Virus record (IMG/VR): IMGVR_UViG_3300031951_000259
Location: 1-49,047 of that record
Direction: 5' to 3' (one strand)
Source of the DNA: a virus
Length of the DNA stretch: 49,047 nt
The notes under the pieces are model-generated. The model worked only from the letters and a program-made list of their open reading frames with translations. It made no database searches and was not told where the DNA came from. Shown in pieces: positions 13,171 through 41,518 of this stretch. The position numbers and the translations under genes are program-made. Positions within the stretch are counted from its first letter, which is position 1; every line of letters starts with the position of its first letter.

Positions 13171-13887
13171 ATGTATAAAAAAATAAAATTTCACCCAGAT
13201 GATTCTTTAATGGAGTCAGTAAAACATATTAATTCTTCTGTAAGTTCAATTCCGCAATGGTATAAAGACTCTCCGCAGTTTGTTTCAAATCAAAAAACCC
13301 CATCGCTGATTCCGAATTTTCCAACAGCAACTAATTCAACATATAAGAGATGTTCGCCATTTCTAGATGCACTTTCTTCTGGGTATACTATAACTCTTCC
13401 TGCAGACTTACAAATATTCCGCAGGCCAGACGGTAATCCATTTTTTGCTTGGAGATATGAAAATCTTAACATGGTGTCTCATCATAATGATGAACAGTTT
13501 GAGGGATTTGAAATTCCAGATAGGTTTAATAAAAAAGTTTTTAAATGGGAGTTTAGGTTTCAAGTTGAAACACCCCCTGGATATTCTTGTGTTTTTACAC
13601 ATCCAATGAATAGACTAGACCTACCATTTCAAACACTATCTGGTGTTGTTGATACTGATGGATACCCTCTTGCTGTTTTATTACCATTTGTTATAGAAAA
13701 AGATTTTGAGGGCATTATAGATGCGGGTACTCCTATAGCTCAAATAATTCCATTTAAAAGAGAAAACTGGAATAGTGAATACACAAAGTATAGTTCGGAG
13801 CAAAGTTCTTTAAGGCAACATAAACTATTATCTAAAATTGTTAGGTCGTATAAGTCCCAATGGTGGAAGAAAAAAATATATCAATAA
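13171..13887 (+). CDS. DUF6065-like protein, paralogue 1 of 4
   Basis: 238 residues. Motifs: SIPQWYKDSP (26-35), KRCSPFLDALSSGYTITL (59-76), TPPGYSCVFTHPMNRLDLPF (134-153), LSGVVDTDG (156-164) and AGTPIAQIIPFKRENW (185-200). The same motifs in the same order occur at 19963-20670, 40781-41518 and, more distantly, 39427-40185. The GVVDTD...GTPIAQ pattern resembles the dUTPase/dCTP-deaminase beta fold. Catalytic role unknown; inference only. Confidence 0.8.
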   Translation: MYKKIKFHPDDSLMESVKHINSSVSSIPQWYKDSPQFVSNQKTPSLIPNFPTATNSTYKRCSPFLDALSSGYTITLPADLQIFRRPDGNPFFAWRYENLNMVSHHNDEQFEGFEIPDRFNKKVFKWEFRFQVETPPGYSCVFTHPMNRLDLPFQTLSGVVDTDGYPLAVLLPFVIEKDFEGIIDAGTPIAQIIPFKRENWNSEYTKYSSEQSSLRQHKLLSKIVRSYKSQWWKKKIYQ

Positions 13888-13888
13888 A

Positions 13889-14119
13889 ATGTATACAGAC
13901 AATATGCGTAGGGCCTTTCATTCTATACAGGCGCCCAAAAATTTTGTAGTAAATCTTATTGACAATGATAGCTTTCTTACGATAAAATTAGATGAAAGAT
14001 CATTTGTTAATATGACTCATGATGAAAAATTAGAAGCCGTTAAATATGTTTCTATGTTAAAAAAAGCTTTAGAAATGGAAGGTGCTATAGTGTTAGTAAC
14101 TAGGGAGCCATTAAAGTAA
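13889..14119 (+). CDS. Small protein, unknown (76 aa)
   Basis: ATG 13889 follows the preceding stop by 1 nt. Beta strand and helix pattern: NFVVNLIDNDSFLTIKLDERSFVNM then a helix (HDEKLEAVKYVSMLKKALEMEGA) and strand IVLVTREP. Compact alpha/beta protein; family not recognised. Overlaps the next ATG. Confidence 0.7.
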   Translation: MYTDNMRRAFHSIQAPKNFVVNLIDNDSFLTIKLDERSFVNMTHDEKLEAVKYVSMLKKALEMEGAIVLVTREPLK

Positions 14120-14607
14120 TGCAAACATTTTTGCCACAGTCAGACTACGATACATCTGCAAAAATGCTAGATAGTAAACGACTTAATAAACAGATTCTAG
14201 AAGGCTATCAGATACTAAATGTTTTATCTGGTATGTCTAAAAGTGGTGGGTGGCGTAATCATCCAGCAGTACTGATGTGGAAAGGATATGAGCGTGGTCT
14301 GTGGCATTATATTCAGTCTATGGTTGCTGAAGCAAAACGCCGTGGTATTAAAACAGAAAATAACGAGGCAAACCTAAATAGACTTAAAGATCGGTGCTGG
14401 GAATACTGGGGAGAGCAAGCCCCTTTATATTTTCAAGATTCTAGTAAAATGATTAGAATTGTAACTACTCATCGTGCCAATCTTTTTAAGAAAGATCCTA
14501 TCTACTATGTACACTTTCAATACGCAGTTAATAGTATTAATAATGCCCCATGTTGTCCAAACCGCAAAGAACCATGTAAGTATTATTGGCCAACACACGT
14601 ATCATGA
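14119..14607 (+). CDS. Pyr_excise-family DNA glycosylase-like protein (MSMEG_6728 type)
   Basis: 162 residues. MQTFLPQSDYDTSAKMLDSKRLNKQILEGYQIL is the conserved N-terminus of the Pyr_excise/T4 DenV-related family as found in actinobacteria; GGWRNHPAVLMWKGYERGLWHYIQ is its second signature. DenV removes pyrimidine dimers using its N-terminal amine. Whether this branch acts the same way is not proven. A Cys-rich tail (CCPNRKEPCKYYW) is added. Overlaps the next gene (ATGA). Confidence 0.82.
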   Translation: MQTFLPQSDYDTSAKMLDSKRLNKQILEGYQILNVLSGMSKSGGWRNHPAVLMWKGYERGLWHYIQSMVAEAKRRGIKTENNEANLNRLKDRCWEYWGEQAPLYFQDSSKMIRIVTTHRANLFKKDPIYYVHFQYAVNSINNAPCCPNRKEPCKYYWPTHVS

Positions 14608-15512
14608 GTATATTTATATCAATAGCAAGTTATCGTGATCCAGAATTAGTCAGAACTATCAAATCTGCTATTGATAACGCTTTTAATCCAGATCAATTAG
14701 TTTTTTCTGTAATAATACAAGATTTAGAAAAAGATATTCCAGACTTGTCATGGGTAAAAAATTTAAAATTAATAACAATGCATCCAAGAGAAGCAAAAGG
14801 TGCAGGGTATGCCAGATCAATTGCAATGAGCCAGTATGCTGGCGAAGACTATTACTTACAGATAGATTCACATACTATATTTGAAAAAAATTGGGATATG
14901 GAGTGTATCAAACAACATAATTTAGCAAAGTCATTATCTAGAAATGAAAAAATAATACTATCTTACTTTCCAGCACCATTTCATGTTGAGCCAAACAGTT
15001 CAGTATATTTTATTAAAAATGACAAAACTAAACCACCATATTCAACAAGACAAGTGCCGTCTTTAAATAAACGAAACGAATGGACTGCTAAAAGATTAGA
15101 TTTTATAGATACCGAAAGAAAAAATCCAGAGCAGTCGTCCACAGTACTTGCTGGTTTTATTTTCACTTCTGGAAATATTGTAGAAGAGGTTCCATATGAT
15201 CCAGATATTAGTTTTTTTGGAGAAGAGGTTTGTTTTGCTATGAGATCTTGGACTAGAGGATGGGATATATATTCTCCATCAAAAAATATTGTGTATCATT
15301 TTTATAATCGTGCAAACTATAGTAAAATATGGAAAGACAAAAATATAAGAAAACTTTCTTGGAAAGAAATAGAGCAAAAATCAAAAGAAAGACAAAAGTT
15401 AATTTTATGTGGAATTGAGCAAGGTATTTTTGGTGCTGGCCAATATAGACATTTAAGGGCATATGAAAAATTTGCTGGAGTAGATTTCAAAAAAACATAT
15501 GGTTTGACATAA
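14604..15512 (+). CDS. GT-A glycosyltransferase, GlcNAc-transferase-like
   Basis: 302 residues from ATG 14604 (ATGA overlap). N-terminus SIFISIASYRDPELVRTIKSA is the signature of the Skp1-GlcNAc-transferase-like family (PF11397). Asp-x-His DSH in YYLQIDSHTIFE is the nucleotide-sugar/metal motif, and FGEEVCFAMRSWTRGWDIYSP the acceptor-side motif. It may decorate virion protein or surface glycans. The target is unknown. Confidence 0.82.
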   Translation: MSIFISIASYRDPELVRTIKSAIDNAFNPDQLVFSVIIQDLEKDIPDLSWVKNLKLITMHPREAKGAGYARSIAMSQYAGEDYYLQIDSHTIFEKNWDMECIKQHNLAKSLSRNEKIILSYFPAPFHVEPNSSVYFIKNDKTKPPYSTRQVPSLNKRNEWTAKRLDFIDTERKNPEQSSTVLAGFIFTSGNIVEEVPYDPDISFFGEEVCFAMRSWTRGWDIYSPSKNIVYHFYNRANYSKIWKDKNIRKLSWKEIEQKSKERQKLILCGIEQGIFGAGQYRHLRAYEKFAGVDFKKTYGLT

Positions 15513-15532
15513 ACATACAATAGTAGTACAAT
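15504..15532 (+). promoter_or_regulatory. Consensus promoter TTGACA-17-TACAAT
   Basis: TTGACA at 15504-15509, 17 nt, TACAAT at 15527-15532. It overlaps the glycosyltransferase stop and drives ATG 15552 with AAGAGGTG as ribosome binding site. Confidence 0.82.
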
Positions 15533-15551
15533 AGTATTGAAAGAGGTGTTT

Positions 15552-15965
15552 ATGGATATTGTTTATTTTGTTTTAGGAGCTACATCTCTTATATTTTTTT
15601 GGCTGTATATTAATACAAGAAAAAGATTGGTTATTCTTCGGGATGGTTTTCAAAAATTATATGAGTCAAACCAGATATTAAGATCTATTATTGATGAAAA
15701 ACCTACAAAAGAAGAAGAAGATATCCATAAAGAAAATTTTATTAAGTTTTTATCTGATTCTAGAGAGTGGGCCTATGACTATATTGAAAATGTTCAAAAT
15801 GGTATTGAAGGGTTTATAAAAAAAGTAGAGCCATCTATAAAACATTTTAATGAGTATGGATCTGTAGTAGAGGGATCACCTCATTATGGTAGTATGAAGA
15901 TTATTAGTTCCGAGTTTGAAAAGTTAAAGACTTTACTTCCAGAGGAATTTAGTGATAGACGCTAG
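15552..15965 (+). CDS. Membrane-anchored coiled-coil protein
   Basis: 137 residues. ATG 15552 has a good ribosome binding site, better than TTG 15537. One N-terminal TM (IVYFVLGATSLIFFWLYI), then a cytoplasmic helical, charged region (RKRLVILRDGFQKLYESN, EFEKLKTLLPEEFSDRR). Unknown; might be a lysis accessory or membrane-organising protein. Confidence 0.75.
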   Translation: MDIVYFVLGATSLIFFWLYINTRKRLVILRDGFQKLYESNQILRSIIDEKPTKEEEDIHKENFIKFLSDSREWAYDYIENVQNGIEGFIKKVEPSIKHFNEYGSVVEGSPHYGSMKIISSEFEKLKTLLPEEFSDRR

Positions 15966-16140
15966 GGGTATTCCTACATGCGAGTGTCCAAATTGTGGTG
16001 GAACACTATTTAGAGCACTAATTGCATTTGACCCAGAAACGTATACAATAGGGATGTATCATTTAGATATAGAGTGTCATGCTTGTGGTGCTTTTTGTAC
16101 CGCACCTACACCGTTAGATAATCCACAGGGGGAAAAATGA
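15952..16140 (+). CDS. Zinc-ribbon protein (62 aa), GTG start
   Basis: GTG 15952 with AGAGGA at 15941-15946. CECPNCGG and CHACGAF form a four-Cys zinc ribbon. The rest is short beta strands. It overlaps both neighbours. Function unknown. Confidence 0.75.
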   Translation: MIDARGIPTCECPNCGGTLFRALIAFDPETYTIGMYHLDIECHACGAFCTAPTPLDNPQGEK

Positions 16141-16295
16141 AAGAAATATTTTTATCAGTACTAACAGGTTTTGGATGTGGCGTAGTATTCGCAGCATTCA
16201 AATTGCCAGTTCCAGCACCGCCAGTATTTGCAGGGGTGGCAGGAATTATCGGATTATGGGCTGGCTATGCTATACTAATTAGGGTTCTATCCTAG
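16137..16295 (+). CDS. XapX/DUF1427-like membrane protein (52 aa)
   Basis: MKEIFLSVLTGFGCGVVFAAFKLPVPAPPVFAGVAGIIGLWAGY pattern: two TM segments with the LPxPAPP motif between them, the mark of XapX/DUF1427. Start overlaps the upstream stop (ATGA) and has GGGGGAAAAA in front. Role unknown; two-TM layout before another membrane protein would allow a holin role. Confidence 0.8.
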   Translation: MKEIFLSVLTGFGCGVVFAAFKLPVPAPPVFAGVAGIIGLWAGYAILIRVLS

Positions 16296-16304
16296 GAGGA
16301 CAAA

Positions 16305-16556
16305 ATGGAACTAAGTAAGAAAAATAAGGCAATGCTTGCATCATATGCTCGCTCAGTAGTAGGTGCAGCGTCAACTCTATACATTGCTGGAGTAACAGAT
16401 CCAAAGGATCTTTGGGCAGCACTAATTGGTGCTCTTATTCCAGTGGCGGCACGTGCAATTAATCCAAACGATCCAGCATTCGGTCGTTTGCCAAAGGCTT
16501 CTGATGTTGAAGAAGCATTAAAGTCTGCAAAGCCACGAAAGAAGAAGTCTGAGTAA
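16305..16556 (+). CDS. Holin-like small membrane protein
   Basis: 83 residues, AGGAGG ribosome binding site. Two moderately hydrophobic segments (SVVGAASTLYIAGV and LWAALIGALIPVAARAI) joined by DPKD, then NPNDPAFGRLP and a basic tail KPRKKKSE. This layout is common in actinophage proteins annotated as holins. A terminator follows. Confidence 0.72.
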   Translation: MELSKKNKAMLASYARSVVGAASTLYIAGVTDPKDLWAALIGALIPVAARAINPNDPAFGRLPKASDVEEALKSAKPRKKKSE

Positions 16557-16570
16557 ATAGCTCGGCGAAG

Positions 16571-16606
16571 ATAGGGCGTGATCCTTTTGGGTTGCGCCCT
16601 ATTTTA
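16571..16606 (+). terminator. Intrinsic terminator at the right end of the first rightward block
   Basis: 8-bp stem ATAGGGCG (16571-16578) with CGCCCTAT (16595-16602), then TTTAATATTT. It reaches into the end of the convergent glycosyltransferase gene. Confidence 0.85.
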
Positions 16607-17627
16607 ATATTTCAATATATTTATCTTTTAAAATATCAACAGAAAAATTATTATATCCAATATTAAATGCTTTTTGTTTTTGCTCAAATTTATTACTAAC
16701 AACATAATCATCAATTAATTTAGCAAGCATTTTAGGATTACCTTCATATACATCAATTAGAGTTCTTGCTCTAAATTGATCTATCTTGTTAGATTTAACC
16801 AACCATTCTTTTGGAAGCACCGTGTTGTTTGGTGATATATCTGTCATAAAAACTGGTAGTCCAGATAGCAAAGCCTCATTCATTGGAAGGCATAATCCTG
16901 CATACCTTCTTGGAAGAATCATGGCATCAAAACCAGAGTAAAGATCTTCTCTGTTTTCTGGACTTTTGGTATCTATAGACAAACGACTATCTTTTATATC
17001 AATATTAAGTTCAGACTGAGATTTTATTACAATTTCATAATCTGTTTTAGAATATTTAAGCATCTCAACTATTGTATTTGTTCCATTACGATCTAAATGT
17101 GCTGCTTTTCCACCTACATGCAATAATCTTTTATAGTCTTTACTTAAGTTATTAGCCTTTACCTTAGCAAAATTTTCATGGGTAGTTGGAGGTGGTAGGT
17201 GAATAACCCTAGACTTACTCCCAAAAGCCTCTGTAACGGCCTCAAAACCCCATAAACTGGGTGCTAGAAGAACGTCTGGAAGATCCAACTCTGGCCTCTG
17301 TAGATTGTCTAAAAACTCATAATTATATTGAAGTACTGTTTTGACATTTCTTTTTCTAGCTAAACTAATAAAGTCTTTATTATAAAATGTTTCACAAGAT
17401 AATACGACATCAAGACCACGAAGAAATATATTTATATCGCTAGGTTTTGGAAAACCACGAACATGTTGGCAATCATATTTCTCATACCACTCTGGATGTT
17501 GTTTATTTTTATTGAATGATGTAGAGTTTATAAGCATAACCTTTGTAGGGTTAAGCATGTCTACTAATTCTTTTGTTTGATTACCAAGACCAGTATTATC
17601 TGATCTAGCAATTATTCCTAACTTCAT
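16599..17627 (-). CDS. GT-B glycosyltransferase (family 4-type)
   Basis: 342 residues from ATG 17627 (MKLGIIARSDNTGLGNQTKEL). N-terminal Rossmann domain with GLGNQT loop; C-terminal domain with LLHVGGKAAH, and the nucleotide-sugar motif PRRYAGLCLPMNEALLSGLPVFMTD. Overlaps the FkbM gene by one base (TAATG), so they are translationally coupled. Likely modifies a surface or virion glycan. A longer start at 17666 would overlap the methyltransferase. Confidence 0.85.
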   Translation of the reverse strand: MKLGIIARSDNTGLGNQTKELVDMLNPTKVMLINSTSFNKNKQHPEWYEKYDCQHVRGFPKPSDINIFLRGLDVVLSCETFYNKDFISLARKRNVKTVLQYNYEFLDNLQRPELDLPDVLLAPSLWGFEAVTEAFGSKSRVIHLPPPTTHENFAKVKANNLSKDYKRLLHVGGKAAHLDRNGTNTIVEMLKYSKTDYEIVIKSQSELNIDIKDSRLSIDTKSPENREDLYSGFDAMILPRRYAGLCLPMNEALLSGLPVFMTDISPNNTVLPKEWLVKSNKIDQFRARTLIDVYEGNPKMLAKLIDDYVVSNKFEQKQKAFNIGYNNFSVDILKDKYIEILK

Positions 17628-18283
17628 TAATAGAGCCACGCCCAAATCATACCGCCACGTTCCCAAGATCCCATGGTGCGGACATGATGTGTTTCTGAAA
17701 GCTTTTGCACCATTTCACCCATTTGTCTACCAGAGCGAATGTCAAACTCCATAGTAATGTATTTACACTTGTTAAGGTTTTCTTTTGAGGCACCAAGAAT
17801 AATTTCTGTCTCTGCTCCCTCAACATCTATTTTTAATACATCAACTTCGTTAATATGATATAGCATAAAGAAATTATCAAGCGGCATAACTTCTACTTCT
17901 GCACCAAACATGCCATCATCTTTAATGCTTGATCCACCACCACTATCATGAATCACTGCAGTGCCTTTAAAATCACTAATAGCATATGGGCAAGTATATA
18001 TTTTATCTTCCATTTTATTTATTTCAATATTACGTTTTAAAGCTTCAAGATTATGTGGCTCAGGTTCAATAGCATAAACAGTAGCGCCATGATGAGCAGC
18101 ATATACAGAGAATGCACCGATATTTGCCCCAATATCAATAACTACACCACCCCTATTGAAATGAGTGTCTTTAACCTCATAAACATTTTCTTGCCAAATT
18201 TCTCTTACTACAATTTGATCTGTTTCATACTCATCTCTTAAATCAAATTTAACAAGGCTTGCAATTGGAACGGTATATATCAT
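17627..18283 (-). CDS. FkbM-family SAM-dependent methyltransferase
   Basis: 218 residues. Methyltransferase motif I VVIDIGANIGAFSVYAA, YAIEPEPHNLEALKRNI as motif II, and VDVLKIDVEGAETEIILGA, the FkbM signature. Family members O-methylate sugars, including LPS and glycopeptide sugars, so capping of a glycan made by the flanking glycosyltransferases is likely. Start overlaps the upstream gene. Confidence 0.88.
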   Translation of the reverse strand: MIYTVPIASLVKFDLRDEYETDQIVVREIWQENVYEVKDTHFNRGGVVIDIGANIGAFSVYAAHHGATVYAIEPEPHNLEALKRNIEINKMEDKIYTCPYAISDFKGTAVIHDSGGGSSIKDDGMFGAEVEVMPLDNFFMLYHINEVDVLKIDVEGAETEIILGASKENLNKCKYITMEFDIRSGRQMGEMVQKLSETHHVRTMGSWERGGMIWAWLY

Positions 18284-19221
18284 ATTTTTAACTCCTTAAG
18301 TATTTGTTCCCATCTATTTTTATATGTATATTTGCTTTTAACTAGTTCATGACCTGCTTTTCGTATTGTTTCACGCTCTTCATCATGCTTTAAGTAATAG
18401 TCAATAAGTTGTTTTAGTTGTTTAAAGTTTCCATATTCATAAAATACAAGATGTTTTTTATCTTCAAACTCTCTTTCCATACCTTTAACATATGGATGAA
18501 TTATAAAACCACCACGCCCCATTGTTTCATAAACACGATCAGACCAGTAATTTGGGTAATTAAAATTAATACATAGGGTATCCCCAACTACAACTTTTGA
18601 TGTTGCATACAATTTATTTAATACTGGTCCACGTATAGCTGGTTTTCCACCGCTTCCGTAGTGCTCAAATTTATCACCATAGGTTTCCTCTAACCAGTCA
18701 ATTAGCTTAGGTCTATATTCCCATTCTGGATGGTATCTTTTGCTACCAACAAAAACAACGTCATGTGTTTTAGGATATTCTTTTAAATAGCACTCTTTAT
18801 CATAAACCCCAGCAGGGACGTAGTGTCCAACTACTTTTGTTTTAGTATTAAACCAATCAGCCATCTTGCTATCAACAGTAAAAAAATGACCAATGTGTTT
18901 ATAAACAGGGTGTGTGTTTAAATCTTTTTGTCTTTGTAAACCAAACCAAAGGTCAAGATGATATGTCATTGTTGGAATACCATAATCAGATAGAGTTTTT
19001 AATACTCTGTCCATTTCAAATTTGCCAGGAGTTCTCCAACCATGGGTATGAACCCACACAAGAAGATCTGAGTCAATAGAATATTTTAGTATTTCTTCAC
19101 TTTTGGCTTCAGACTCTTGAAGTCTTATAACCTTATGACCCATAGATTCCAGGGTATTGGCATGATGTGTCTCACTAGTATAGTCAACACGAAAATTACC
19201 TAAGAATACTATTTTTGCCAA
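18280..19221 (-). CDS. GT-B glycosyltransferase (CgeB/Glyco_trans_1_2 type), TTG start
   Basis: 313 residues. TTG 19221 has AAAGGGGTAG 4-5 nt upstream. MAKIVFLGNFRVDYTSETHHANTL is a glycosyltransferase N-terminus with HH acceptor loop. The C-terminal motif SDRVYETMGRGGFIIHP...KHLVFYEYGNFKQLKQLIDYYL is characteristic of the CgeB/Glyco_trans_1_2 group. Overlaps the FkbM gene by 4 nt. Confidence 0.85.
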   Translation of the reverse strand: MAKIVFLGNFRVDYTSETHHANTLESMGHKVIRLQESEAKSEEILKYSIDSDLLVWVHTHGWRTPGKFEMDRVLKTLSDYGIPTMTYHLDLWFGLQRQKDLNTHPVYKHIGHFFTVDSKMADWFNTKTKVVGHYVPAGVYDKECYLKEYPKTHDVVFVGSKRYHPEWEYRPKLIDWLEETYGDKFEHYGSGGKPAIRGPVLNKLYATSKVVVGDTLCINFNYPNYWSDRVYETMGRGGFIIHPYVKGMEREFEDKKHLVFYEYGNFKQLKQLIDYYLKHDEERETIRKAGHELVKSKYTYKNRWEQILKELKI

Positions 19222-19223
19222 GA

Positions 19224-19373: not shown

Positions 19374-19379
19374 GCAATG

Positions 19380-19388: not shown

Positions 19389-19392
19389 TTGG

Positions 19393-19464
19393 CAGCACTA
19401 ACGGGAATCGAACCCGTCTTTCCGCCGTGAAAGGGCGATGTCCTAACCGATAGACGATAGTGCC
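19393..19464 (-). tRNA. tRNA-Glu (TTC)
   Basis: Minus strand: acceptor GGCACTA with TAGTGCT (first pair G-U), anticodon stem TCGCC/GGCGG (one mismatch-free stem), loop CTTTCAC giving TTC, T-arm ACGGG-TTCGATT-CCCGT, discriminator G. Confidence 0.92.
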
Positions 19465-19467
19465 ATG

Positions 19468-19541
19468 CGATCCATATCGGACTTGAACCGACGACCTCTA
19501 CCGTGACAGGGTAGCGCTCTAACCAACTGAGCTAATGGACC
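19468..19541 (-). tRNA. tRNA-Asp (GTC)
   Basis: Minus strand: acceptor GGTCCAT/ATGGATC, D-arm GCTC...GAGC, anticodon loop CTGTCAC (GTC), T-arm GTCGG-TTCAAGT-CCGAT, discriminator G. Separated from tRNA-Glu by 3 nt. Confidence 0.92.
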
Positions 19542-19707
19542 TTGTATGCCAGTCACGTTATCTGTTTTTACAGCGAATATAACTACTGGCTCTACTCCCT
19601 AGACAACGATTCCAGCGGACACTCTCGACAAGTGCAATCCACCATCTATGCCAGCGACATTTTCGGGGCAGTTGTATCTATCCTGAGTCGAATCTAGATA
19701 GACCTTG
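19542..19707 (-). other. 166-nt spacer between tRNAs, structured and unexplained
   Basis: No gene and no standard tRNA could be folded here. It is richer in GC than its surroundings and holds short inverted repeats such as TCTATC/GATAGA near 19677-19703. It is flanked by tRNA-Asp and tRNA-Met, so it would be part of the tRNA transcript. Confidence 0.4.
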
Positions 19708-19781
19708 TGGAACAAGTAGGACTTGAACCTACGACGACCCGATTATGAGTCGGGGGCTCTAACCAACTGAGCTATTGTTCC
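19708..19781 (-). tRNA. tRNA with CAT anticodon (Met, or Ile2)
   Basis: Minus strand: perfect acceptor GGAACAA/TTGTTCC, anticodon stem CCCGA/TCGGG, loop CTCATAA, T-arm GTAGG-TTCAAGT-CCTAC, discriminator A. It lacks the initiator GGG/CCC stem pairs next to the loop, so it is elongator Met or an Ile tRNA that needs lysidine. Confidence 0.9.
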
Positions 19782-19791
19782 TTAATTTATT

Positions 19792-19962: not shown

Positions 19963-20670
19963 CTAATCATACGATTTTTTATTCCATATATTATTTTTGT
20001 ACCACCCAGATATCACTGAATTACTTTTTTTCAAATAAACCTGTGCAGACTCAACTAAGTTATTCTTTTTTTCTAAAATCCAGTTTTCATTTTTAAATGG
20101 AATAATTTGCATTATAGGTGTTCCCTTTGTTAATATTCCGTCAAAGTTATTTTGCAATATAAAGGGTGCCTGACCACCTGCTGGAATTATCCATCCACTA
20201 TCTATAATACCAGTAAGGGTAATAAATGGCAAATCAAATCTATTAAAAGGATGAGTAACTAAAACACTATATCCTTTTGGAATTTCTATTGCTAATGGAA
20301 AGTTCCATGCAAATTCATTTTTATAAAAACCATTTGGCTTTTGAACGTAACTCATTTCAATGTCTCTATTTAAAATTGCTGGATCACCATAATGGTTAGC
20401 TGTCAAAAATGGATTTCCCAACGAATCTTTTGTTATTACAACATCGTGTGCCAGAGTAACAATGTATCCAGAAATTAAAGCATCTAAAAATGGAATACAG
20501 TTTTTTAAAGTTTTTCTTAGTTTGGGGTTGGGCGGAGAAACTAATATACCATCCTGCCATTTTGGTATATCTTTATACCATTTTGGTATTAATTTTTTAG
20601 CAGGAACCAAGTTGTCTGGATATATATCTATTGCCGACTCAAAGTTAATTATATTTTTTTTCTTAAACAT
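19963..20670 (-). CDS. DUF6065-like protein, paralogue 2 of 4
   Basis: 235 residues. LIPKWYKDIPKW, NCIPFLDALISGYIVTL, IPKGYSVLVTHPFNRFDLPFITL, TGIIDSGW and KGTPIMQIIPFKNENW line up one to one with paralogue 1 (13171-13887) across the whole length. The conserved Cys, Pro-Phe-Leu-Asp, THPxNRxDLPF and GTPIxQIIPFK blocks are kept. Family function unknown. It heads a two-gene unit with 19792-19953. Confidence 0.8.
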   Translation of the reverse strand: MFKKKNIINFESAIDIYPDNLVPAKKLIPKWYKDIPKWQDGILVSPPNPKLRKTLKNCIPFLDALISGYIVTLAHDVVITKDSLGNPFLTANHYGDPAILNRDIEMSYVQKPNGFYKNEFAWNFPLAIEIPKGYSVLVTHPFNRFDLPFITLTGIIDSGWIIPAGGQAPFILQNNFDGILTKGTPIMQIIPFKNENWILEKKNNLVESAQVYLKKSNSVISGWYKNNIWNKKSYD

Positions 20671-34894: not shown

Positions 34895-34910
34895 TTTTAT
34901 TTCCTTTCTT

Positions 34911-34940: not shown

Positions 34941-34963
34941 ACATTTTCAACCCGACACGCCCT

Positions 34964-35644: not shown

Positions 35645-35671
35645 TAGTTTTCCTTTCATTTTCAGGCTTCT

Positions 35672-35700
35672 AGCCTATCATTTTCTACTGACATTTTCAA
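35672..35700 (-). promoter_or_regulatory. Promoter TTGAAA-17-TAGGCT
   Basis: Minus strand TTGAAA (35700-35695), spacer ATGTCAGTAGAAAATGA, TAGGCT (35677-35672). A TTACGTAC box lies 60 nt upstream (35767-35760). Confidence 0.7.
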
Positions 35701-35861
35701 ATTAGACAGACATAAATCTCAAATAATAAGACGGCGTGTTTTGTGGGAAATCTCACATCGTACGTAAAGCGACACGCCCGACTGCGGGGGTCGAAAAGTT
35801 GTCGAAAAATTTAGTTGAAACTTCAACCGATTTAGTCAAAGTTTCAACCAATTTATTTAGA

Positions 35862-36008
35862 TCAGGGCTTTGTTTGTTTCCAAATCAGCTCTGTGTTTTC
35901 AATTCGCAATTCTCTGTTTTCAATTTCTAATCTGCGAAGATTTGTCATCATTCCAAAAACAAAAACGCCGAATGAAATTAGAGCAAAAATCAAAATAAAT
36001 TCTGTCAT
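35862..36008 (-). CDS. TM plus coiled-coil protein (48 aa)
   Basis: MTEFILIFALISFGVFVFGMMTNLRRLEIENRELRIENTELIWKQ: N-terminal TM then a leucine-zipper-like heptad (LRRLEIENRELRIENTEL). Overlaps the upstream stop (ATGA). A run of GTTGAAAC/GTTTCAAC inverted repeats follows the stop. Confidence 0.68.
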   Translation of the reverse strand: MTEFILIFALISFGVFVFGMMTNLRRLEIENRELRIENTELIWKQTKP

Positions 36009-36196
36009 GCTGGTATTAGTCCTAACTCATCAACGCCACACGCTTTCTCAAATCGTGCTTTGTCAAATCTATCGTTATCAGATAAAAAGAATTGAGCGAA
36101 TTCCTCTACCAAATCCTCAAATACCTGTGGGTGTATCTCGCCAGAAAATCCAGCGAGAATATTAGCAGTTTCAACATAGTCTTTTCTAGTCATCAT
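36005..36196 (-). CDS. Small phage protein (63 aa)
   Basis: MTRKDYVETANILAGFSGEIHPQVFEDLVEEFAQFFLSDNDRFDKARFEKACG: the RKDYVxxA...F..DNxRFDxxRFxxAC pattern is common among small phage proteins. Helical. AGGAG upstream. Function unknown. Confidence 0.75.
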   Translation of the reverse strand: MMTRKDYVETANILAGFSGEIHPQVFEDLVEEFAQFFLSDNDRFDKARFEKACGVDELGLIPA

Positions 36197-36197
36197 T

Positions 36198-36452
36198 TTA
36201 GTTATCTCCTAGCATGATAAACGCACCGCTACCGCCTGCGTTAATGTGAGTAAGTTCCTGAAGTAGTTCAGGGGTAGAAAGTAGCGAAGGGTCGCCAATT
36301 AGTTCAGAAACAGCGTCTTGATTTAGTTTAGCAAATATGCCTTCGGGCAGGTTAGCAATTACTTTTGCCATGTCTGAGTGAGAATAAACTCTTGAAATAA
36401 AATTCACGCCGTTAGCGGTGAAGGGATAGTCAATATAAGTTGAAGTAGTCAT
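36198..36452 (-). CDS. Unknown protein (84 aa)
   Basis: MTTSTYIDYPFTANGVNFISRVYSHSDMAKVIANLPEGIFAKLNQDAVSEL.... Ribosome binding site AAGAAAGG. Preceded by the 40-aa gene at 36454-36576. Family not recognised. Confidence 0.7.
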   Translation of the reverse strand: MTTSTYIDYPFTANGVNFISRVYSHSDMAKVIANLPEGIFAKLNQDAVSELIGDPSLLSTPELLQELTHINAGGSGAFIMLGDN

Positions 36453-36453
36453 T

Positions 36454-36576
36454 TTAGTTTTTACCTTTCTTGGGTGTGTTAGTTGTTATGACAATTTTAG
36501 CGATTTTCTCTAGGTTTGTCAAGCGAGTCGCTTCACGCTCTTTCTTGACTAATTCTTGGAATTCATGAAGTTTCAT
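36454..36576 (-). CDS. Basic helical microprotein (40 aa) overlapping a promoter
   Basis: MKLHEFQELVKKEREATRLTNLEKIAKIVITTNTPKKGKN. Overlaps the upstream stop (TAATG). The promoter at 36494-36522 lies within it, so the frame and the control site share DNA. Confidence 0.6.
   Translation of the reverse strand: MKLHEFQELVKKEREATRLTNLEKIAKIVITTNTPKKGKN
36494..36522 (-). promoter_or_regulatory. Promoter TTGACA-17-TAAAAT inside the 40-aa gene
   Basis: Minus strand TTGACA (36522-36517), 17 nt, TAAAAT (36499-36494). Drives 36198-36452. Confidence 0.72.
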
Positions 36577-36785
36577 TAGTCTGCCACCTTTACTGCGACA
36601 GTAGCCCAATTTTGTTTTATGGACTGTCCGACACGAAAACGGATAGCGTAGGCTTCATAGCCGTCTAGCCAAATATCCTCACGCTTTTCAGCGAAAGTGA
36701 TTTCGCCACCTTGAAAGCGGCGAGCAAGTGAGCGAGGGAAATAAGTTTGCCCAACGAGCAAATCTTCAATTGAATAAGTTTTCAT
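36576..36785 (-). CDS. Small protein, paralogue of 38398-38598 (69 aa)
   Basis: MKTYSIEDLLVGQTYFPRSLARRFQGGEITFAEKREDIWLDGYEAYAIRFR...ATVAVKVAD. It aligns with the plus-strand gene at 38398: ESLLIGKAYRSRSL..AEKRDDVWYDGADAYLVRVR..TIAVKVGE. Beta-rich; function unknown. Confidence 0.75.
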   Translation of the reverse strand: MKTYSIEDLLVGQTYFPRSLARRFQGGEITFAEKREDIWLDGYEAYAIRFRVGQSIKQNWATVAVKVAD

Positions 36786-36872
36786 AGTTTTTACCTTTCT
36801 TTATGTATCCTATTATTTCATTTTTTAGCGTGAAAGTCAAATTAGACACACACTCATTTTATGTGATTTACC

Positions 36873-37070
36873 TCACACGGGGAGTATGTCTAGCCCATAG
36901 TATTCTACGGCTTCCACGATCCCCATCATGCCTTTATAGTCTTGGCATGAGTAGCAGATAGCGTTCCAGCCGTCTGTTGTATGTGAGCAGAACACGCAGA
37001 TTTTATCTGTTAGGCAGAAGTCGTTTTCCGCTAGGTATTCCATTATTTCTGATTTTGTTAGTGTAGTCAT
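36873..37070 (-). CDS. Zinc-ribbon protein (65 aa)
   Basis: Start ATG 37070 with GAAAGGTAGG upstream. MTTLTKSEIMEYLAENDFCLTDKICVFCSHTTDGWNAICYSCQDYKG: CVFC and CYSC form a four-Cys zinc site. Unknown function. Confidence 0.72.
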   Translation of the reverse strand: MTTLTKSEIMEYLAENDFCLTDKICVFCSHTTDGWNAICYSCQDYKGMMGIVEAVEYYGLDILPV

Positions 37071-37093
37071 TTTTGACCTACCTTTCATTTTTC

Positions 37094-37122
37094 TTATAGG
37101 ATAAGTCTAGCAGGGGGGACTG
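37094..37122 (-). promoter_or_regulatory. Promoter TTGTCA-17-TATCCT
   Basis: Minus strand, upstream of 36873-37070. The sequence before it, CGACACGCCCGAAAAACAGG, recurs near 37859-37893. Positions approximate to a base or two. Confidence 0.6.
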
Positions 37123-37210
37123 ACAAAATAGCCTGTTTTTCGGGCGTGTCGGGAAATTATTTTTGTGAGGATTATCACACAGGGACAAATCGGACATTTC
37201 GGACTTGTCG

Positions 37211-37240
37211 AAAAAATTTGCCAGCTTTTTTACGGCTGGC
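37211..37240 (-). terminator. Intrinsic terminator
   Basis: Minus strand GCCAGC/GCTGGC stem (37240-37221), then AAATTTTTTCGACA. Directly follows 37247-37396. Confidence 0.83.
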
Positions 37241-37246
37241 ATTTAT

Positions 37247-37396
37247 TTATTCAACAACATCTAAAACTTCAAATGCGTCAAACTTTACAACATCAGATTC
37301 AGGTAATTTATACATTACTTTATTTAGAGCAAAGATCGCATCTAAATCTGTATCTGCTTCAGTAACGAAACTGATTAGAATATTTTTCTTAGTCAA
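37247..37396 (-). CDS. Small protein (49 aa), TTG start
   Basis: TTG 37396 has AAAGGAG 9 nt upstream. MTKKNILISFVTEADTDLDAIFALNKVMYKLPESDVVKFDAFEVLDVVE: alpha/beta, acidic end. Overlaps the upstream stop. Unknown. Confidence 0.65.
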   Translation of the reverse strand: MTKKNILISFVTEADTDLDAIFALNKVMYKLPESDVVKFDAFEVLDVVE

Positions 37397-37601
37397 AGTA
37401 AACCGCTCCTTTCACATCTTTATGATTTACACAAACATTACCACGAGGAATTTCTACATGGCATTTAAAGCAAAGCATTTTAACTTCTGCTTTAGTTAGT
37501 ATTGCTAATTCTAAATCTAATTTAGTATCAGCAGAAGCATTTTCTAATGATACCCAACCAGCACCATTAGAATTCATTTCAAAAATTTCTAGTGTAGCCA
37601 T
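37389..37601 (-). CDS. Small Cys/His protein (70 aa)
   Basis: MATLEIFEMNSNGAGWVSLENASADTKLDLELAILTKAEVKMLCFKCHVEIPRGNVCVNHKDVKG: CFKC plus CVNH form a zinc site. TAATG overlap with 37601-37810. Confidence 0.72.
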   Translation of the reverse strand: MATLEIFEMNSNGAGWVSLENASADTKLDLELAILTKAEVKMLCFKCHVEIPRGNVCVNHKDVKGAVYFD

Positions 37602-37810
37602 TACTTACGACCACCTTTCATGTAAGAAGAAAATCTTTTTTCTGAACCACACTTTTCGCAAGTGCGGATTATTGAGGTTTTACCATTTGAGAAGGTATAA
37701 CCTTGTTTATCTGCGAAACCGTCATGGTCGCAATTTAGATTAGTGTTATTGCTAATCTGAAAGTACCCATTTGGTACTGTGTAGAATTTGTTATTTAGTA
37801 AGTTAGTCAT
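37601..37810 (-). CDS. Small zinc-type protein (69 aa)
   Basis: MTNLLNNKFYTVPNGYFQISNNTNLNCDHDGFADKQGYTFSNGKTSIIRTCEKCGSEKRFSSY: NCDHDG, CEKCG; likely zinc. GAAAGGAGTT ribosome binding site. The leftmost-starting gene of the leftward early block. Confidence 0.72.
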   Translation of the reverse strand: MTNLLNNKFYTVPNGYFQISNNTNLNCDHDGFADKQGYTFSNGKTSIIRTCEKCGSEKRFSSYMKGGRK

Positions 37811-37842
37811 TTTCTAACTCCTTTCTTTTATCTTGATACTAG

Positions 37843-37854
37843 TATCCTAACATA
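37843..37854 (-). promoter_or_regulatory. -10 region TGT-TAGGAT of the leftward block
   Basis: Minus strand extended -10; no good -35 at 17 nt. Faces the rightward promoter at 38032 across a 180-nt GC-richer gap with several CGGGCGTGTCG copies. Confidence 0.5.
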
Positions 37855-38031
37855 GACCACTGACAAATTGACCTGTTTCTCGGGCGTGTCGCAAATCTTT
37901 TTTTGTGATAAGAGTCACAGAATCTCCCACCCACGAGGTCGGGCGTGTCGGTTTCGAAACTTTTTCGACATGTCCGTTTTGCCCCTTTTGCCTATGTGAC
38001 CAACACCACACACGACACGCCGAGACAGGAC

Positions 38032-38060
38032 TTGACTTTTGCGAGGGTATATGATAGGAT
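38032..38060 (+). promoter_or_regulatory. Promoter TTGACT-17-TAGGAT
   Basis: TTGACT at 38032-38037, 17 nt, TGA-TAGGAT at 38055-38060. First promoter of the rightward block. Confidence 0.78.
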
Positions 38061-38095
38061 ACTCCTATAACAATTAAGAAAGGTTGGTTCAACTA

Positions 38096-38212
38096 ATGGA
38101 CTATTTTGATTACTATGATGAGGTCTATACAGACATCTACCTAGAGTTTGGCGCTGATAGCGTTTCAGACCCTGCTCACGCTGAGGCTTTGTTAGGTAAA
38201 TCACAAAACTAA
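38096..38212 (+). CDS. Acidic microprotein (38 aa)
   Basis: MDYFDYYDEVYTDIYLEFGADSVSDPAHAEALLGKSQN, strongly acidic and aromatic. AGAAAGG upstream, its own promoter in front. Unknown. Confidence 0.65.
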   Translation: MDYFDYYDEVYTDIYLEFGADSVSDPAHAEALLGKSQN

Positions 38213-38226
38213 CACGGCGTGTCGCC

Positions 38227-38255
38227 TTGACTTTTAGGGCGGTATAGAGTAAAAT
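38227..38255 (+). promoter_or_regulatory. Promoter TTGACT-17-TAAAAT
   Basis: TTGACT at 38227-38232, 17 nt, TAAAAT at 38250-38255, GGCGGTAT within the spacer. The leader carries two TGAGCCTAGCAAATAA repeats (38290 and 38323). A further TGA-TAAAAT is near 38363. Confidence 0.75.
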
Positions 38256-38397
38256 ACTCAGTATAAATAAATAGAGACATCTAGGGTAGTGAGCCTAGCA
38301 AATAAGTGTGATACAAATCACAATGAGCCTAGCAAATAAATACCCAAAATGTCAGCCCCCAATGATAAAATGAAAGTATCTAAGAAAGGATAACTAA

Positions 38398-38598
38398 ATG
38401 TCAGCAAATGTCTATACAACAGAAAGCCTACTAATTGGAAAGGCTTATCGTTCTCGTTCCCTAGAGGGAATTATTCAAGACGCAGAAAAGCGTGATGATG
38501 TCTGGTATGACGGAGCAGACGCATACCTAGTGCGTGTTCGCCCTACTCATGGTCTATCAGATAAGTATCGCACTATCGCAGTAAAGGTTGGTGAGTAA
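38398..38598 (+). CDS. Small protein, paralogue of 36576-36785 (66 aa)
   Basis: MSANVYTTESLLIGKAYRSRSLEGIIQDAEKRDDVWYDGADAYLVRVRPTHG..YRTIAVKVGE. GAAAGGATAACTAA ribosome binding site. Same fold as its leftward paralogue 1.6 kb away on the other strand. Confidence 0.76.
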   Translation: MSANVYTTESLLIGKAYRSRSLEGIIQDAEKRDDVWYDGADAYLVRVRPTHGLSDKYRTIAVKVGE

Positions 38599-38709
38599 AT
38601 GATAAACTCAATAGAAAGAATAAATTGTGATGAGTGCTACGGGCACGGCGTTATTTTCTACGGAGATAACGATGATTACGCAGTAGAGCCATGCGAGTGC
38701 GTGGCATGA
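38599..38709 (+). CDS. DnaJ-type zinc microprotein (36 aa)
   Basis: MINSIERINCDECYGHGVIFYGDNDDYAVEPCECVA: CxxCxGxG plus CxC, a relative of 34682-34894. ATG lies next to the upstream stop. Confidence 0.7.
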   Translation: MINSIERINCDECYGHGVIFYGDNDDYAVEPCECVA

Positions 38710-38831
38710 CCTACTCAGATGAACAACTAAGGCGAAAGGCTCACCTAGAAAATGGTGGCACTCTCGCTAACTATGACCGCTCTCATTATCCACAGAAAGA
38801 AAAGGTAGAAAATGAAACTCAAGATAACTAG
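38706..38831 (+). CDS. Small protein (41 aa)
   Basis: MTYSDEQLRRKAHLENGGTLANYDRSHYPQKEKVENETQDN. Overlaps both neighbours (ATGA and ATGAAACTC). Charged, likely disordered. Confidence 0.62.
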   Translation: MTYSDEQLRRKAHLENGGTLANYDRSHYPQKEKVENETQDN

Positions 38832-38994
38832 CATGAACGGCAAAGAAATGGACATGGAATTGCCTACAAAAGAAAATGTCTATTACTTTATTGACTTGTA
38901 TAAGAAAAATCTCAAGAAAAATCAGCGAGTAAAAATTACTTGTGATTTACTTGGAATTGACGGATACCTACAAGGCACTGCCCCTCTGCGATAA
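38812..38994 (+). CDS. Small basic protein (60 aa)
   Basis: MKLKITSMNGKEMDMELPTKENVYYFIDLYKKNLKKNQRVKITCDLLGIDGYLQGTAPLR. Alpha/beta, AAAGGTAG upstream. Unknown. A terminator follows at 39032. Confidence 0.7.
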   Translation: MKLKITSMNGKEMDMELPTKENVYYFIDLYKKNLKKNQRVKITCDLLGIDGYLQGTAPLR

Positions 38995-39031
38995 GCTGGG
39001 GGCGGTAGTGATCAGAAAAGTAGGGGGCACC

Positions 39032-39056
39032 AGTAGTGTGCTCACTATTATTTTTT
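39032..39056 (+). terminator. Intrinsic terminator
   Basis: Stem AGTAGTG/CACTATT (one G-T pair), 4-nt loop TGCT, then ATTTTTTG. Confidence 0.7.
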
Positions 39057-39109
39057 GATTATTTTTTAAAATATATGTATCATACATCTTAAAAAAATTT
39101 TCAGATTTT

Positions 39110-39118
39110 TGGTATAAT
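39110..39118 (+). promoter_or_regulatory. Leaderless promoter TGG-TATAAT
   Basis: TATAAT at 39113-39118, 6 nt before ATG 39125. Confidence 0.72.
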
Positions 39119-39124
39119 GAAAGT

Positions 39125-39223
39125 ATGAATCCTAAAGAGCCAGAGAGCTTGGCACTAAAAATTTTTCAGGAAATGTGTTGCGACACATGCTCATGCAAAA
39201 ACAATAAAGAAGAATCAAAATAA
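39125..39223 (+). CDS. Leaderless Cys-rich microprotein (32 aa)
   Basis: MNPKEPESLALKIFQEMCCDTCSCKNNKEESK. CC-x-x-C-x-C cluster may bind metal. The promoter placement is the main support. Confidence 0.6.
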   Translation: MNPKEPESLALKIFQEMCCDTCSCKNNKEESK

Positions 39224-39227
39224 AAAA

Positions 39228-39413
39228 ATGTTTTGTAGGCATGTTTATGAGTACGTTTATTCTGATGTATGTCCTGATTGTGGGCGGTATACTCATGAAC
39301 CTGATAGAGAATTAGATATAAAATTATTTAAAGAATACTACGCTTCTGGAAAACACTTAGAGTATAAGTGTCCAATAGAAGGCGGTACAATAAGGGGTTG
39401 GTGGAGTATTTGA
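39228..39413 (+). CDS. Zinc-ribbon-like protein (61 aa)
   Basis: MFCRHVYEYVYSDVCPDCGRYTHEPDRELDIKLFKEYY...YKCPIEGGTIRGWWSI: Cys3-x-x-His, CPDCG and a late Cys. 4 nt from the previous stop. Similar style to other small zinc proteins here. Confidence 0.7.
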   Translation: MFCRHVYEYVYSDVCPDCGRYTHEPDRELDIKLFKEYYASGKHLEYKCPIEGGTIRGWWSI

Positions 39414-39426
39414 ATCTGGGGGTAAT

Positions 39427-40185
39427 ATGATAAACGATGGTATTAATGACATACCAAGTAATTCTATATCTATTTTTCCAAATAAACTTGAAAATGGCGA
39501 ATATGTTCCATTCGAATCTATAAGTAGGATTATAGAAAAACCATCTAAAAAAAGAGATTGGTTTACTCCGCATTTCTATAGATGCTTGCCATTAACAATA
39601 GCAAACTCCTATGGTTTTATTATAAAAACAGAATTTGATTTTGGATTTCAGTGGAATGGTGGGGAAGATATAAAAGATGTATCATTATATTTTAATAAAA
39701 GTCCTCAAGAAATGAATAATCTATACCCATCTATTGTTTCACATTTTGGTAGTGGAATAATAACTGTTAGTATGCCATTTAGCATAAGAACTCCACCTGG
39801 AGTTAATATTATGACTATCAATCCACCAAATTATATAATTCCAAATATTACTGTAATGAGCGGGGTAGTTGAAACAGATAACCTAAGAAGAGATTTTACA
39901 TTTAATTTAAAAATACAAACTCCTAATGTCATGACTTTTATAGACGCTGGTACACCAATTGCTGCCTTTATACCAGTACCTAGATACTTTTCTGATAGCT
40001 TTGAAATTGTAGAAGCAAAAAATTTGTTTTCTCAAGATCTTATAGAAGAAGAGTTTAAAGCACTTCAAAAGGCTGAAGAAATAAGAACTAATTTAAAAAA
40101 AGAGTCAAAAACGGCGGTAGATAGATTATATTTATCTGGAACAGATGTTTATGGAAATAAATTTAAAGATCATCAAGGACCATAA
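39427..40185 (+). CDS. DUF6065-like protein, paralogue 3 of 4
   Basis: 252 residues; the most divergent member and the closest to DUF6065 as I know it: FYRCLPLTIANSYGFII, FGFQWNGGEDIKD, SHFGSGIITVSMPFSIRTPPGVNIMTINPPNYIIPNIT, MSGVVETDNLRRDFTFNLKIQ and FIDAGTPIAAFIPVPRYF. The TPPGxxxxxxxPxN, SGVVxTD and AGTPIAxxIP blocks match the other three copies in order and spacing. Helical Lys/Glu tail. Function unknown. Confidence 0.82.
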   Translation: MINDGINDIPSNSISIFPNKLENGEYVPFESISRIIEKPSKKRDWFTPHFYRCLPLTIANSYGFIIKTEFDFGFQWNGGEDIKDVSLYFNKSPQEMNNLYPSIVSHFGSGIITVSMPFSIRTPPGVNIMTINPPNYIIPNITVMSGVVETDNLRRDFTFNLKIQTPNVMTFIDAGTPIAAFIPVPRYFSDSFEIVEAKNLFSQDLIEEEFKALQKAEEIRTNLKKESKTAVDRLYLSGTDVYGNKFKDHQGP

Positions 40186-40186
40186 A

Positions 40187-40399
40187 CTACCATTTACCAA
40201 TAGGACATTTTGCATCCTGCAATGATGTCTTAAGCTTCATGAAACAGCCGCATTTGCGGCATGTATTAGTTTTAGGACGGTATGCAGGACATGCATTACA
40301 TATTTCCAAACGGTATTCAGCCAATTCTTCTGAACTTCTAGCCTTATTAGGATTTAATAAATCCCATGGCTTTACATCCTTATTCTCTGAATCCGACAT
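40187..40399 (-). CDS. Cys-rich zinc protein with CPIGKW tail (70 aa)
   Basis: PWDLLNPNKA, LEICNACPAYRPKTNTCRKCGCFMKLKTSLQDAKCPIGKW: four to six Cys zinc site, with the CP(I/L)GKW tail shared with 47616-47861. Leaderless start (TATAAT 7 nt upstream). Convergent with paralogue 3 (1-nt gap). Confidence 0.78.
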   Translation of the reverse strand: MSDSENKDVKPWDLLNPNKARSSEELAEYRLEICNACPAYRPKTNTCRKCGCFMKLKTSLQDAKCPIGKW

Positions 40400-40406
40400 A
40401 TATTCT

Positions 40407-40412
40407 ATTATA
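40407..40412 (-). promoter_or_regulatory. Leaderless promoter TATAAT
   Basis: Minus strand TATAAT 7 nt before ATG 40399; no TG in front. Confidence 0.6.
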
Positions 40413-40539
40413 GCCTATAGCAGATATACTAACAAATGCCAGACATAGTGAATGTTTTCATTCATTGTTTGTCTATATGGTGGTTTAGTAACTCTATTTT
40501 CGGCTTCGCTTTATACCGCCGAATTTTTGTATCAAATAA

Positions 40540-40548
40540 TGATATAAT
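40540..40548 (+). promoter_or_regulatory. Leaderless promoter TGA-TATAAT
   Basis: TATAAT at 40543-40548, 7 nt before ATG 40556. Confidence 0.7.
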
Positions 40549-40555
40549 TTGTTTT

Positions 40556-40780
40556 ATGTCAGCGCAAGATTGGTCAGGATTAATTTTAACGGTTCTATCC
40601 ATTATTGGCATTGTCGGCGCTGGAGTTAGGTGGATCGTGAAAAAATACGTAGAAGATATTATGTCCGAATTAAAGCCAAATAGTGGATCTTCAATGAAAG
40701 ATCAAGTAACACGGCTTGAAGATAAAATGGATAAAATGTTTGATATGATGCTAAATCATTTAGAAAATCATAGCAAATAA
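40556..40780 (+). CDS. Membrane protein with coiled coil (74 aa), holin-like
   Basis: MSAQDWSGLILTVLSIIGIVGAGVRWIVKKYVEDIMSELK...DQVTRLEDKMDKMFDMMLNHLENH: one TM, basic flank, coiled coil. The promoter rules out a longer start. Similar to small phage membrane proteins called holins; role inferred. Confidence 0.72.
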   Translation: MSAQDWSGLILTVLSIIGIVGAGVRWIVKKYVEDIMSELKPNSGSSMKDQVTRLEDKMDKMFDMMLNHLENHSK

Positions 40781-41518
40781 TTACTTAAAATTTTTAGATT
40801 TCCAAACAAATTTTTTATAATAATCTTTTAGATAACTATTTCTAGTATTAATGTTTTTTCTAGCTTCCTCATGCATCATATTATTGTATTCTGATTTCCA
40901 ACTATCTCTTTTAAAGGGAATCAGTTGAAAAATTGGCGTATTTTTTGGAATTATTCCTTCCCAATTTTTCTTTAATAAAAATGGATGACTTCCAGCTTCT
41001 CCCCATCCGTCGGTATCTATAATTCCACCTAGCGTATAAAATGGAAGGTCTATTCTATTAATTGGATGTGTAACAAAACAGCTATAGCCTTTAGGTGTCT
41101 TAATTGACCAAGATGGAAACCAGTTAAATTCTAAATTAGAATATCCTTCTATATTATGCCACCCACACGTATCATCTTGAATCTGTCCATTAACTCTTCT
41201 ACTCATTATTGGTCCAGGAACACCAGGTTGATTAAAAGACCATCTTGCAATAGTGTTTCCATTTTCTATAGAAATCTGAACATCGCAATGAAGATTAAAC
41301 GTATAGCCAGAAGTAAATCCATCAACTACGGGCAAACATGATTTTACAGTCAAATTAGGGGCACCATTAAAAATAAATTTTGATGAATTATTGCTATATT
41401 TTGGCAAATCTTTAAACCATTTAGGTATATTATATTTAGATGCAGGAGATGGTGGATCTGTAAAATCCCCAGATTCTTTAGTTACTGGATAAAACAAAAT
41501 TTTTTTGTCTTTAATCAA
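40781..41518 (-). CDS. DUF6065-like protein, paralogue 4 of 4, TTG start
   Basis: 245 residues. TTG 41518 has ATAGGGGTAG 4-5 nt upstream. NIPKWFKDLPKY, SCLPVVDGFTSGYTFNL, KTPKGYSCFVTHPINRIDLPFYTL, GGIIDTDGWGEAG and KNTPIFQLIPFKRDSWKSEY line up with paralogues 1 and 2. The THPxNRxDLPF block is nearly identical. Convergent with the holin-like gene. Confidence 0.82.
   Translation of the reverse strand: MIKDKKILFYPVTKESGDFTDPPSPASKYNIPKWFKDLPKYSNNSSKFIFNGAPNLTVKSCLPVVDGFTSGYTFNLHCDVQISIENGNTIARWSFNQPGVPGPIMSRRVNGQIQDDTCGWHNIEGYSNLEFNWFPSWSIKTPKGYSCFVTHPINRIDLPFYTLGGIIDTDGWGEAGSHPFLLKKNWEGIIPKNTPIFQLIPFKRDSWKSEYNNMMHEEARKNINTRNSYLKDYYKKFVWKSKNFK

Follow-up and report, generated by a model that had tools for sequence, protein, structure and literature searches.

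The stretch of DNA analyzed here (the window) is a 49,047-bp IMG/VR virus record, and it encodes four members of the DUF6065 family, numbered as copies 1 to 4 in Table 1. A first-pass annotation made from the letters of the sequence had proposed four related open reading frames at these positions and strands. All four are present, and each matches PHROG 7084 (E of 1.3e-50, 1.6e-28, 4.6e-35 and 2e-15 for copies 1, 2, 3 and 4, respectively). The Pfam DUF6065 profile (PF19541) scores above its cut-off for copy 1 (3.9e-7) and copy 4 (1.6e-37, the sole strong match), with copy 3 sub-threshold and copy 2 missed. Iterated hidden Markov model (HMM) searches reveal no fifth copy in the record, setting the number at exactly four. 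Copies 1 to 3 belong to one subfamily, A, and copy 4 to a second, B. The same annotation had credited all four products with a shared series of ordered motifs. This description fits copy 1 strictly and copies 2 and 3 for the most part (copy 2 carries GIIDSG at the GxxDTD site), the complete motif set being a property of subfamily A. It does not extend to copy 4, which is without several of the motifs and has the equivalents KRDWF, CLPLTIANSYGF, NPPN, GVVETD and GTPIAAFIPVPR; the forms found across subfamily B are KRDWF, CLP..., NPPN, VVETDN and GTPIAAFIPVPR. The TTG start of copy 3 is preceded by a plausible AGGGG ribosome site.

Table 1 DUF6065 genes of the window and other genes considered alongside them.
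Feature	Position	Strand	Assignment
Copy 1	13171..13887	+	DUF6065 subfamily A, phrog_7084, 238 aa; protein modelled
Copy 2	19963..20670	-	Subfamily A, 235 aa
Copy 3	40781..41518	-	Subfamily A, 245 aa, TTG start
Copy 4	39427..40185	+	Subfamily B (DUF6065 proper), 252 aa
PF11397 glycosyltransferase (Skp1 hydroxyproline GlcNAc-transferase family)	14586..15512	+	Pfam 1.3e-59
P4H-type 2OG-Fe(II) oxygenase	7759..8421	+	PF13640 1.5e-15
Second, divergent 2OG-Fe(II)-oxygenase-like protein	6569..7165	+	Used to seed the P4H-like HMM set and found again with it
Operon of GT1-like glycosyltransferase, FkbM methyltransferase and Glyco_trans_1_2 glycosyltransferase	16599..19221	-	Pfam
Two collagen-like (Gly-X-Y) proteins	42199..44848	+	PF01391 5.3e-34 and 1.7e-8
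GlcNAc, N-acetylglucosamine; P4H, prolyl 4-hydroxylase; 2OG, 2-oxoglutarate.

DUF6065 is a large, mostly viral family. Neither Pfam nor PHROG assigns a function to it (PF19541 / PHROG 7084), the literature searched makes no mention of it, and scans with PADLOC (anti-phage defence) and NCBIfam returned nothing credible. Subfamily A is found in haloviruses of the HF1/HF2 type, has a distant member in cyanophage S-RIM4 and is carried by hundreds of IMG/VR contigs (one pattern gave at least 593). Subfamily B gave 448 viral and 58 bacterial matches, and the family is present in 11 of a sample of 294 Planctomycetota genomes. The HF1-group haloviruses each carry one subfamily A gene, divergent from Rnr and at the border of the tail module (L082:7902-8738, L081:7836-8720), which the records label just as a hypothetical protein. 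Carriage of several copies is common: 60 loci of the first locus set have two or more, and one contig bears up to 8 matches to the A profile. Phylogenetic analysis places each window copy with copies of other phages: copy 3 groups with L067 and L099 (99%), copy 4 falls inside a 13-member clade (98%), copy 2 falls inside a 9-member clade (95%) and copy 1 joins a six-member group (89%). Because each joins copies from elsewhere and they do not pair with one another, the window copies are old paralogues or separate acquisitions, only distantly related. The repeated duplication suggested by the first-pass annotation is not supported for this phage, and recent duplication was rejected on the same tree.

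To learn more about the family fold, AlphaFold2 models were generated for one member of each subfamily from alignments of window and locus sequences, with the A and B models independent of one another. The model of copy 1 has a predicted local distance difference test (pLDDT) score of 96.1 (83 sequences aligned) and that of copy 4 a score of 83.6 (29 sequences). For both models, the top 50 Foldseek matches in the PDB are dUTPase or dCTP deaminase chains only, where best E values are 7.6e-4 (copy 1) and 4.2e-4 (copy 4), probabilities are 0.97-1.00 and TM-scores are modest (target-normalised ~0.4-0.7). In a Foldseek search of a viral library, uncharacterised phage proteins dominate the first hits, the best being clear members of the family, and dUTP diphosphatases make up most of what follows. 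In sequence-profile alignment, TPPGY falls on PPGY, GVVDTD on GTIDADY and GTPIAQ on GDRIAQ, corresponding to dUTPase motifs 2-4. Sequence alone is nevertheless insufficient to carry the claim of a dUTPase fold, since among 76 unrelated control families one beats dUTPase (0.0016, a 230-aa protein that looks unrelated) and the runner-up stands at 0.014; sequence searches of the PDB found no meaningful relative. The first-pass annotation had guessed at this fold and had read the order of motifs as the dUTPase layout. Both models bear out the fold, and the order does align with motifs 2-4, yet profile-profile comparison with dUTPases is marginal (E 0.004-0.011), so that the guess is supported mainly by structure prediction. 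On the strength of the models, DUF6065 very probably has a dUTPase fold. The family shares with the dUTPase/dCTP deaminase superfamily the predicted fold, the order PxGY, G(V/I)(V/I)D, GxPIxQ and an acidic residue at the position of the motif-III Asp. In contrast, the window copies exceed the matched dUTPase chains by ~100 residues and have extra terminal segments. The likeness to dCTP deaminase is seen in the fold only.

The hallmarks of dUTPase catalysis are lost from this predicted fold. Searches used one pattern for each of the five dUTPase motifs (AGYDL, PRSG, GVIDxxYxG, GxRIAQ and RGxxGFGSTG), each matched by 8-18 of 20 control dUTPases. Motifs 1, 3, 4 and 5 were found in 0 of 163 family sequences and motif 2 in 4, and none of the five is retained in the window copies. 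What members of phage A, of phage B and of cellular origin conserve instead is W30, C61, P63, G71, W94, TPxG (134-137), P145, N147, D/E161, D163, G186, P194 and R197 (copy 1 numbering). The position of the motif-III catalytic Asp, as placed by the register of the profile alignment, is acidic (D or E) in every A and B member and in 46 of 49 cellular members, the other 3 having gaps; S-RIM4 has His there. This pattern suggests a retained but altered binding or active site.

Each viral locus was next inspected for genes that keep company with DUF6065, using a set of 138 non-redundant loci with 223 copies (155 A, 68 B). P4H-like 2OG-Fe(II) oxygenases make up 21 of the 104 immediate neighbours of B copies (20%) versus 0.9% of genes seven or more positions away, and 8% of immediate A neighbours versus ~1% at that distance. 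Glycosyltransferases of the PF11397 (Gnt1-like) type account for 14 of 224 genes next to A (6%) and 0.6% of those far away. In 500 rounds of within-locus permutation, none reached the observed counts for P4H with B (21 observed; mean 7.1, maximum 15), P4H with A (18; mean 8.6, maximum 15) or Gnt1 with A (14; mean 4.7, maximum 12), and 2 of 500 did so for tryptophan halogenase with A (7; mean 2.8). Adjacent P4H genes lie on the same strand as DUF6065 in 39 of 39 cases, compared with 85% for neighbour pairs in general, mostly with small gaps or overlaps. Cassettes recur, with the order DUF-DUF-GNT1-P4H-P4H in L285, L287, L288 and L248, and P4H-DUF-A-P4H-DUF-B(-DUF-B) in L338 and L360. Long consecutive runs of 2OG-Fe(II) oxygenase paralogues are interleaved with DUF6065 at L283:4182-12394, L319:10261-15355 and L339:9591-15169, and tryptophan halogenase genes stand directly beside DUF6065 in L051, L252, L286, L300 and L091. 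Among 38 adjacent proteins searched with Pfam, 24 match PF13640 and 8 match PF11397. The H.D...H iron ligands are present by pattern in 91 of 93 partner oxygenases and invariant in 19 that were aligned. Among solved structures, these oxygenases come closest to prolyl 4-hydroxylases, procollagen-proline dioxygenase, HIF prolyl hydroxylase and prolyl 3-hydroxylase 1. Statistically, the link to genes of the prolyl-hydroxylase type is well supported, yet it is still an association.

Pairing extends to bacteria: in at least 15 of 49 loci, drawn from Gammaproteobacteria, Planctomycetes, Verrucomicrobia and Comamonadaceae, the gene directly upstream of DUF6065 (in some Verrucomicrobia, the one before it) encodes a 2OG oxygenase. 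Two proteins of a Planctomycetaceae metagenome-assembled genome (MAG) join an N-terminal domain like hydroxyproline arabinosyltransferase (HPAT) to DUF6065, with HPAT-like scores of 2.5e-7 (above cut-off) and 3.7e-5 (just below). Further candidate fusions in the 294 Planctomycetota genomes were rejected, as their long frames resembled open frames that had overrun. The phage neighbour set yielded no HPAT-like proteins. Prolyl hydroxylase, Gnt1 family and HPAT therefore converge on hydroxyproline modification.

Within the window, the PF11397 enzyme, a member of the Skp1 GlcNAc-transferase family, lies 0.7 kb downstream of copy 1 and is its probable partner, since PF11397 is enriched next to subfamily A. 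A pyrimidine dimer DNA glycosylase gene (14119-14607, +; PF03013, 7.9e-20) lies between the two. Immediately upstream of copy 1 is a WhiB-like gene (12885-13169, +), which suggests an actinobacterial host; Pfam WhiB also stands beside subfamily A in two other loci. The P4H-type oxygenase has procollagen-proline dioxygenase, P4H and HIF prolyl hydroxylase as its nearest solved structures, and the second, divergent oxygenase-like protein has no Pfam match on its own. Copy 2 lies upstream of the glycosyltransferase-FkbM-glycosyltransferase operon on the same strand, where the GT1 match (16599-17666) is slightly under the Pfam cut-off. Five tRNA genes (Asn, Thr, Glu, Asp, Met) occupy 5612-6180 and 19390-19781, those for Glu, Asp and Met just downstream of copy 2. 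The collagen-like genes adjoin copies 3 and 4. Two mutually similar small cysteine-rich proteins are encoded at 40187-40399 (-) and 47616-47861 (+), with the sequences CNACPAYRPKTNTCRKCGCFM and CSSCPEFISLSKMCKQCGCFM. The family of the latter is the second commonest DUF6065 neighbour (9 non-redundant loci), 4 genes beside subfamily A match DUF6171 (PF19668), and the small cysteine-rich family may belong to the system. RuvB-like, actin-like (Volactin/MreB) and adenylosuccinate-synthetase genes appear next to subfamily B as single cases or pairs, and the last of these may mark phages with 2-aminoadenine DNA.

Because the dUTPase motifs are lost and the cassettes hold prolyl-hydroxylase-like enzymes and hydroxyproline-type sugar transferases, DUF6065 would likely aid modification of protein and not of nucleotides. 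We tentatively propose that it is a redeployed dUTPase-fold partner in the hydroxyproline-type modification of protein side chains by phages. Outside nucleotide metabolism, it would take part, as an additional enzyme or as a subunit that presents the substrate, in cassettes for modifying amino-acid side chains of proteins or peptides. A P4H-type oxygenase would hydroxylate proline (or another residue), a glycosyltransferase of the Skp1-Gnt1 or HPAT type would then glycosylate that hydroxyl, and DUF6065 would bind that same substrate in a cleft where dUTPases have their active site (D/E161, D163, N147, R197, C61). Several divergent copies per phage would provide for several sites or substrates. 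The fold, the loss of motifs, the conserved residues, the gene association and the one fusion come from prediction or statistics; action on protein, a substrate held in common with the partners and any chemistry are what we infer. A bolder form of the proposal is unlikely, namely that DUF6065 is a new dUTPase-fold enzyme class whose targets are hydroxylated or halogenated amino-acid side chains in proteins of the phage or its host. At its core, a hydroxyproline-modification system widespread among viruses would then have DUF6065, with several divergent copies per phage, each paired with its own prolyl hydroxylase.

Known systems offer partial parallels. The Gnt1 family acts on hydroxyproline in the Skp1 pathway (PMC11570480), where, in protists, a prolyl hydroxylase (PHYa) is followed by a hydroxyproline GlcNAc-transferase, and the window has a PF11397 enzyme. 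Organisms and substrate differ, and no DUF6065 is described there. Passages of Iyer et al. 2021 (PMC7824862) place 2OG oxygenases together with an amino-acid halogenase in phage accessory clusters and propose secondary metabolite or capsule decoration for a cyanophage cluster of halogenase and 2OGFeDO. DUF6065 likewise neighbours tryptophan halogenases; the family is unmentioned in those passages.

Several observations weigh against a role in side-chain modification. In only 56 of 137 loci does a modifying gene lie within two genes of a copy, many cellular members (those of Hyphomonadaceae among them) lack such a neighbour, and the HPAT fusion is known from one MAG only. Neighbourhood evidence is guilt by association in accessory-gene regions, for which permutation is not a full remedy. 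Ribonucleotide reductase lies near DUF6065 in the HF1-group haloviruses and in S-RIM4. Collagen-like genes, which would be the obvious substrate, show no general enrichment near DUF6065 in the viral loci, and collagen-like fibres were rejected as a general substrate for want of this co-enrichment. The collagen-like proteins of the window are therefore possible candidate substrates as a local suggestion only.

Inspection of the loci lacking a modifying neighbour, which are the majority, raises the alternative of a catalytically dead scaffold or regulator that travels with tail-adjacent accessory genes and has no direct link to hydroxylation. Herpesviruses have redeployed the dUTPase fold into several paralogues without enzyme activity, the dUTPase-related proteins (DURPs) (PMC11599850), although these belong to other viruses, have a three-domain architecture and lack a link to prolyl hydroxylation. 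A dead scaffold is doubtful in view of the HPAT fusion and of the tight coupling to prolyl-hydroxylase-type genes, which is seen in phages and has independent counterparts in Gammaproteobacteria, Planctomycetes and Verrucomicrobia.

It is quite unlikely that DUF6065 is a genuine enzyme of nucleotides, resembling dUTPase, dCTP deaminase or an NTP pyrophosphatase and serving nucleotide pools or base modification, with its acidic residue kept at the catalytic Asp position. The fold, the D or E at that position in nearly every member and the nearby reductase of the HF1 group and S-RIM4 are consistent with one. However, essentially all of the 163 sequences lack motifs 1, 2, 3 (Tyr), 4 and 5, a pool enzyme would hardly be expected in up to 8 divergent copies per contig, and ribonucleotide reductase shows no enrichment (2 of 330 genes at distance 1 versus 3 of 637 at distance eight or more). 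The nucleotide, base or DNA modification floated in the first-pass annotation is not supported, given the missing motifs, the lack of reductase enrichment and neighbours of the prolyl-hydroxylase and hydroxyproline-glycosylation type. Least probable is that DUF6065 is itself the substrate, a Pro- and Trp-rich beta protein, perhaps virion-associated, decorated by prolyl hydroxylase, hydroxyproline glycosyltransferase and tryptophan halogenase: its many invariant Pro and Trp residues, the tight cassettes with P4H, Gnt1 and tryptophan halogenase and the precedent of Skp1 decorated by PHYa and Gnt1 (PMC11570480) would fit, but around the old active site the invariant set also has Asp/Glu, Asn, Arg and Cys, many members, cellular ones included, have no such partner, and no virion evidence was found, where mass spectrometry of the HF2 virion covers only four major bands (PMC7230728).

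A part in hydroxyproline-type side-chain modification would give a role to a family of unassigned function that is present, often more than once, in hundreds of viral contigs. If the proposal is true, phages have redirected the dUTPase fold from nucleotides to protein modification, and hydroxyproline-type glycosylation, usually thought of as eukaryotic, would be a common viral trait.

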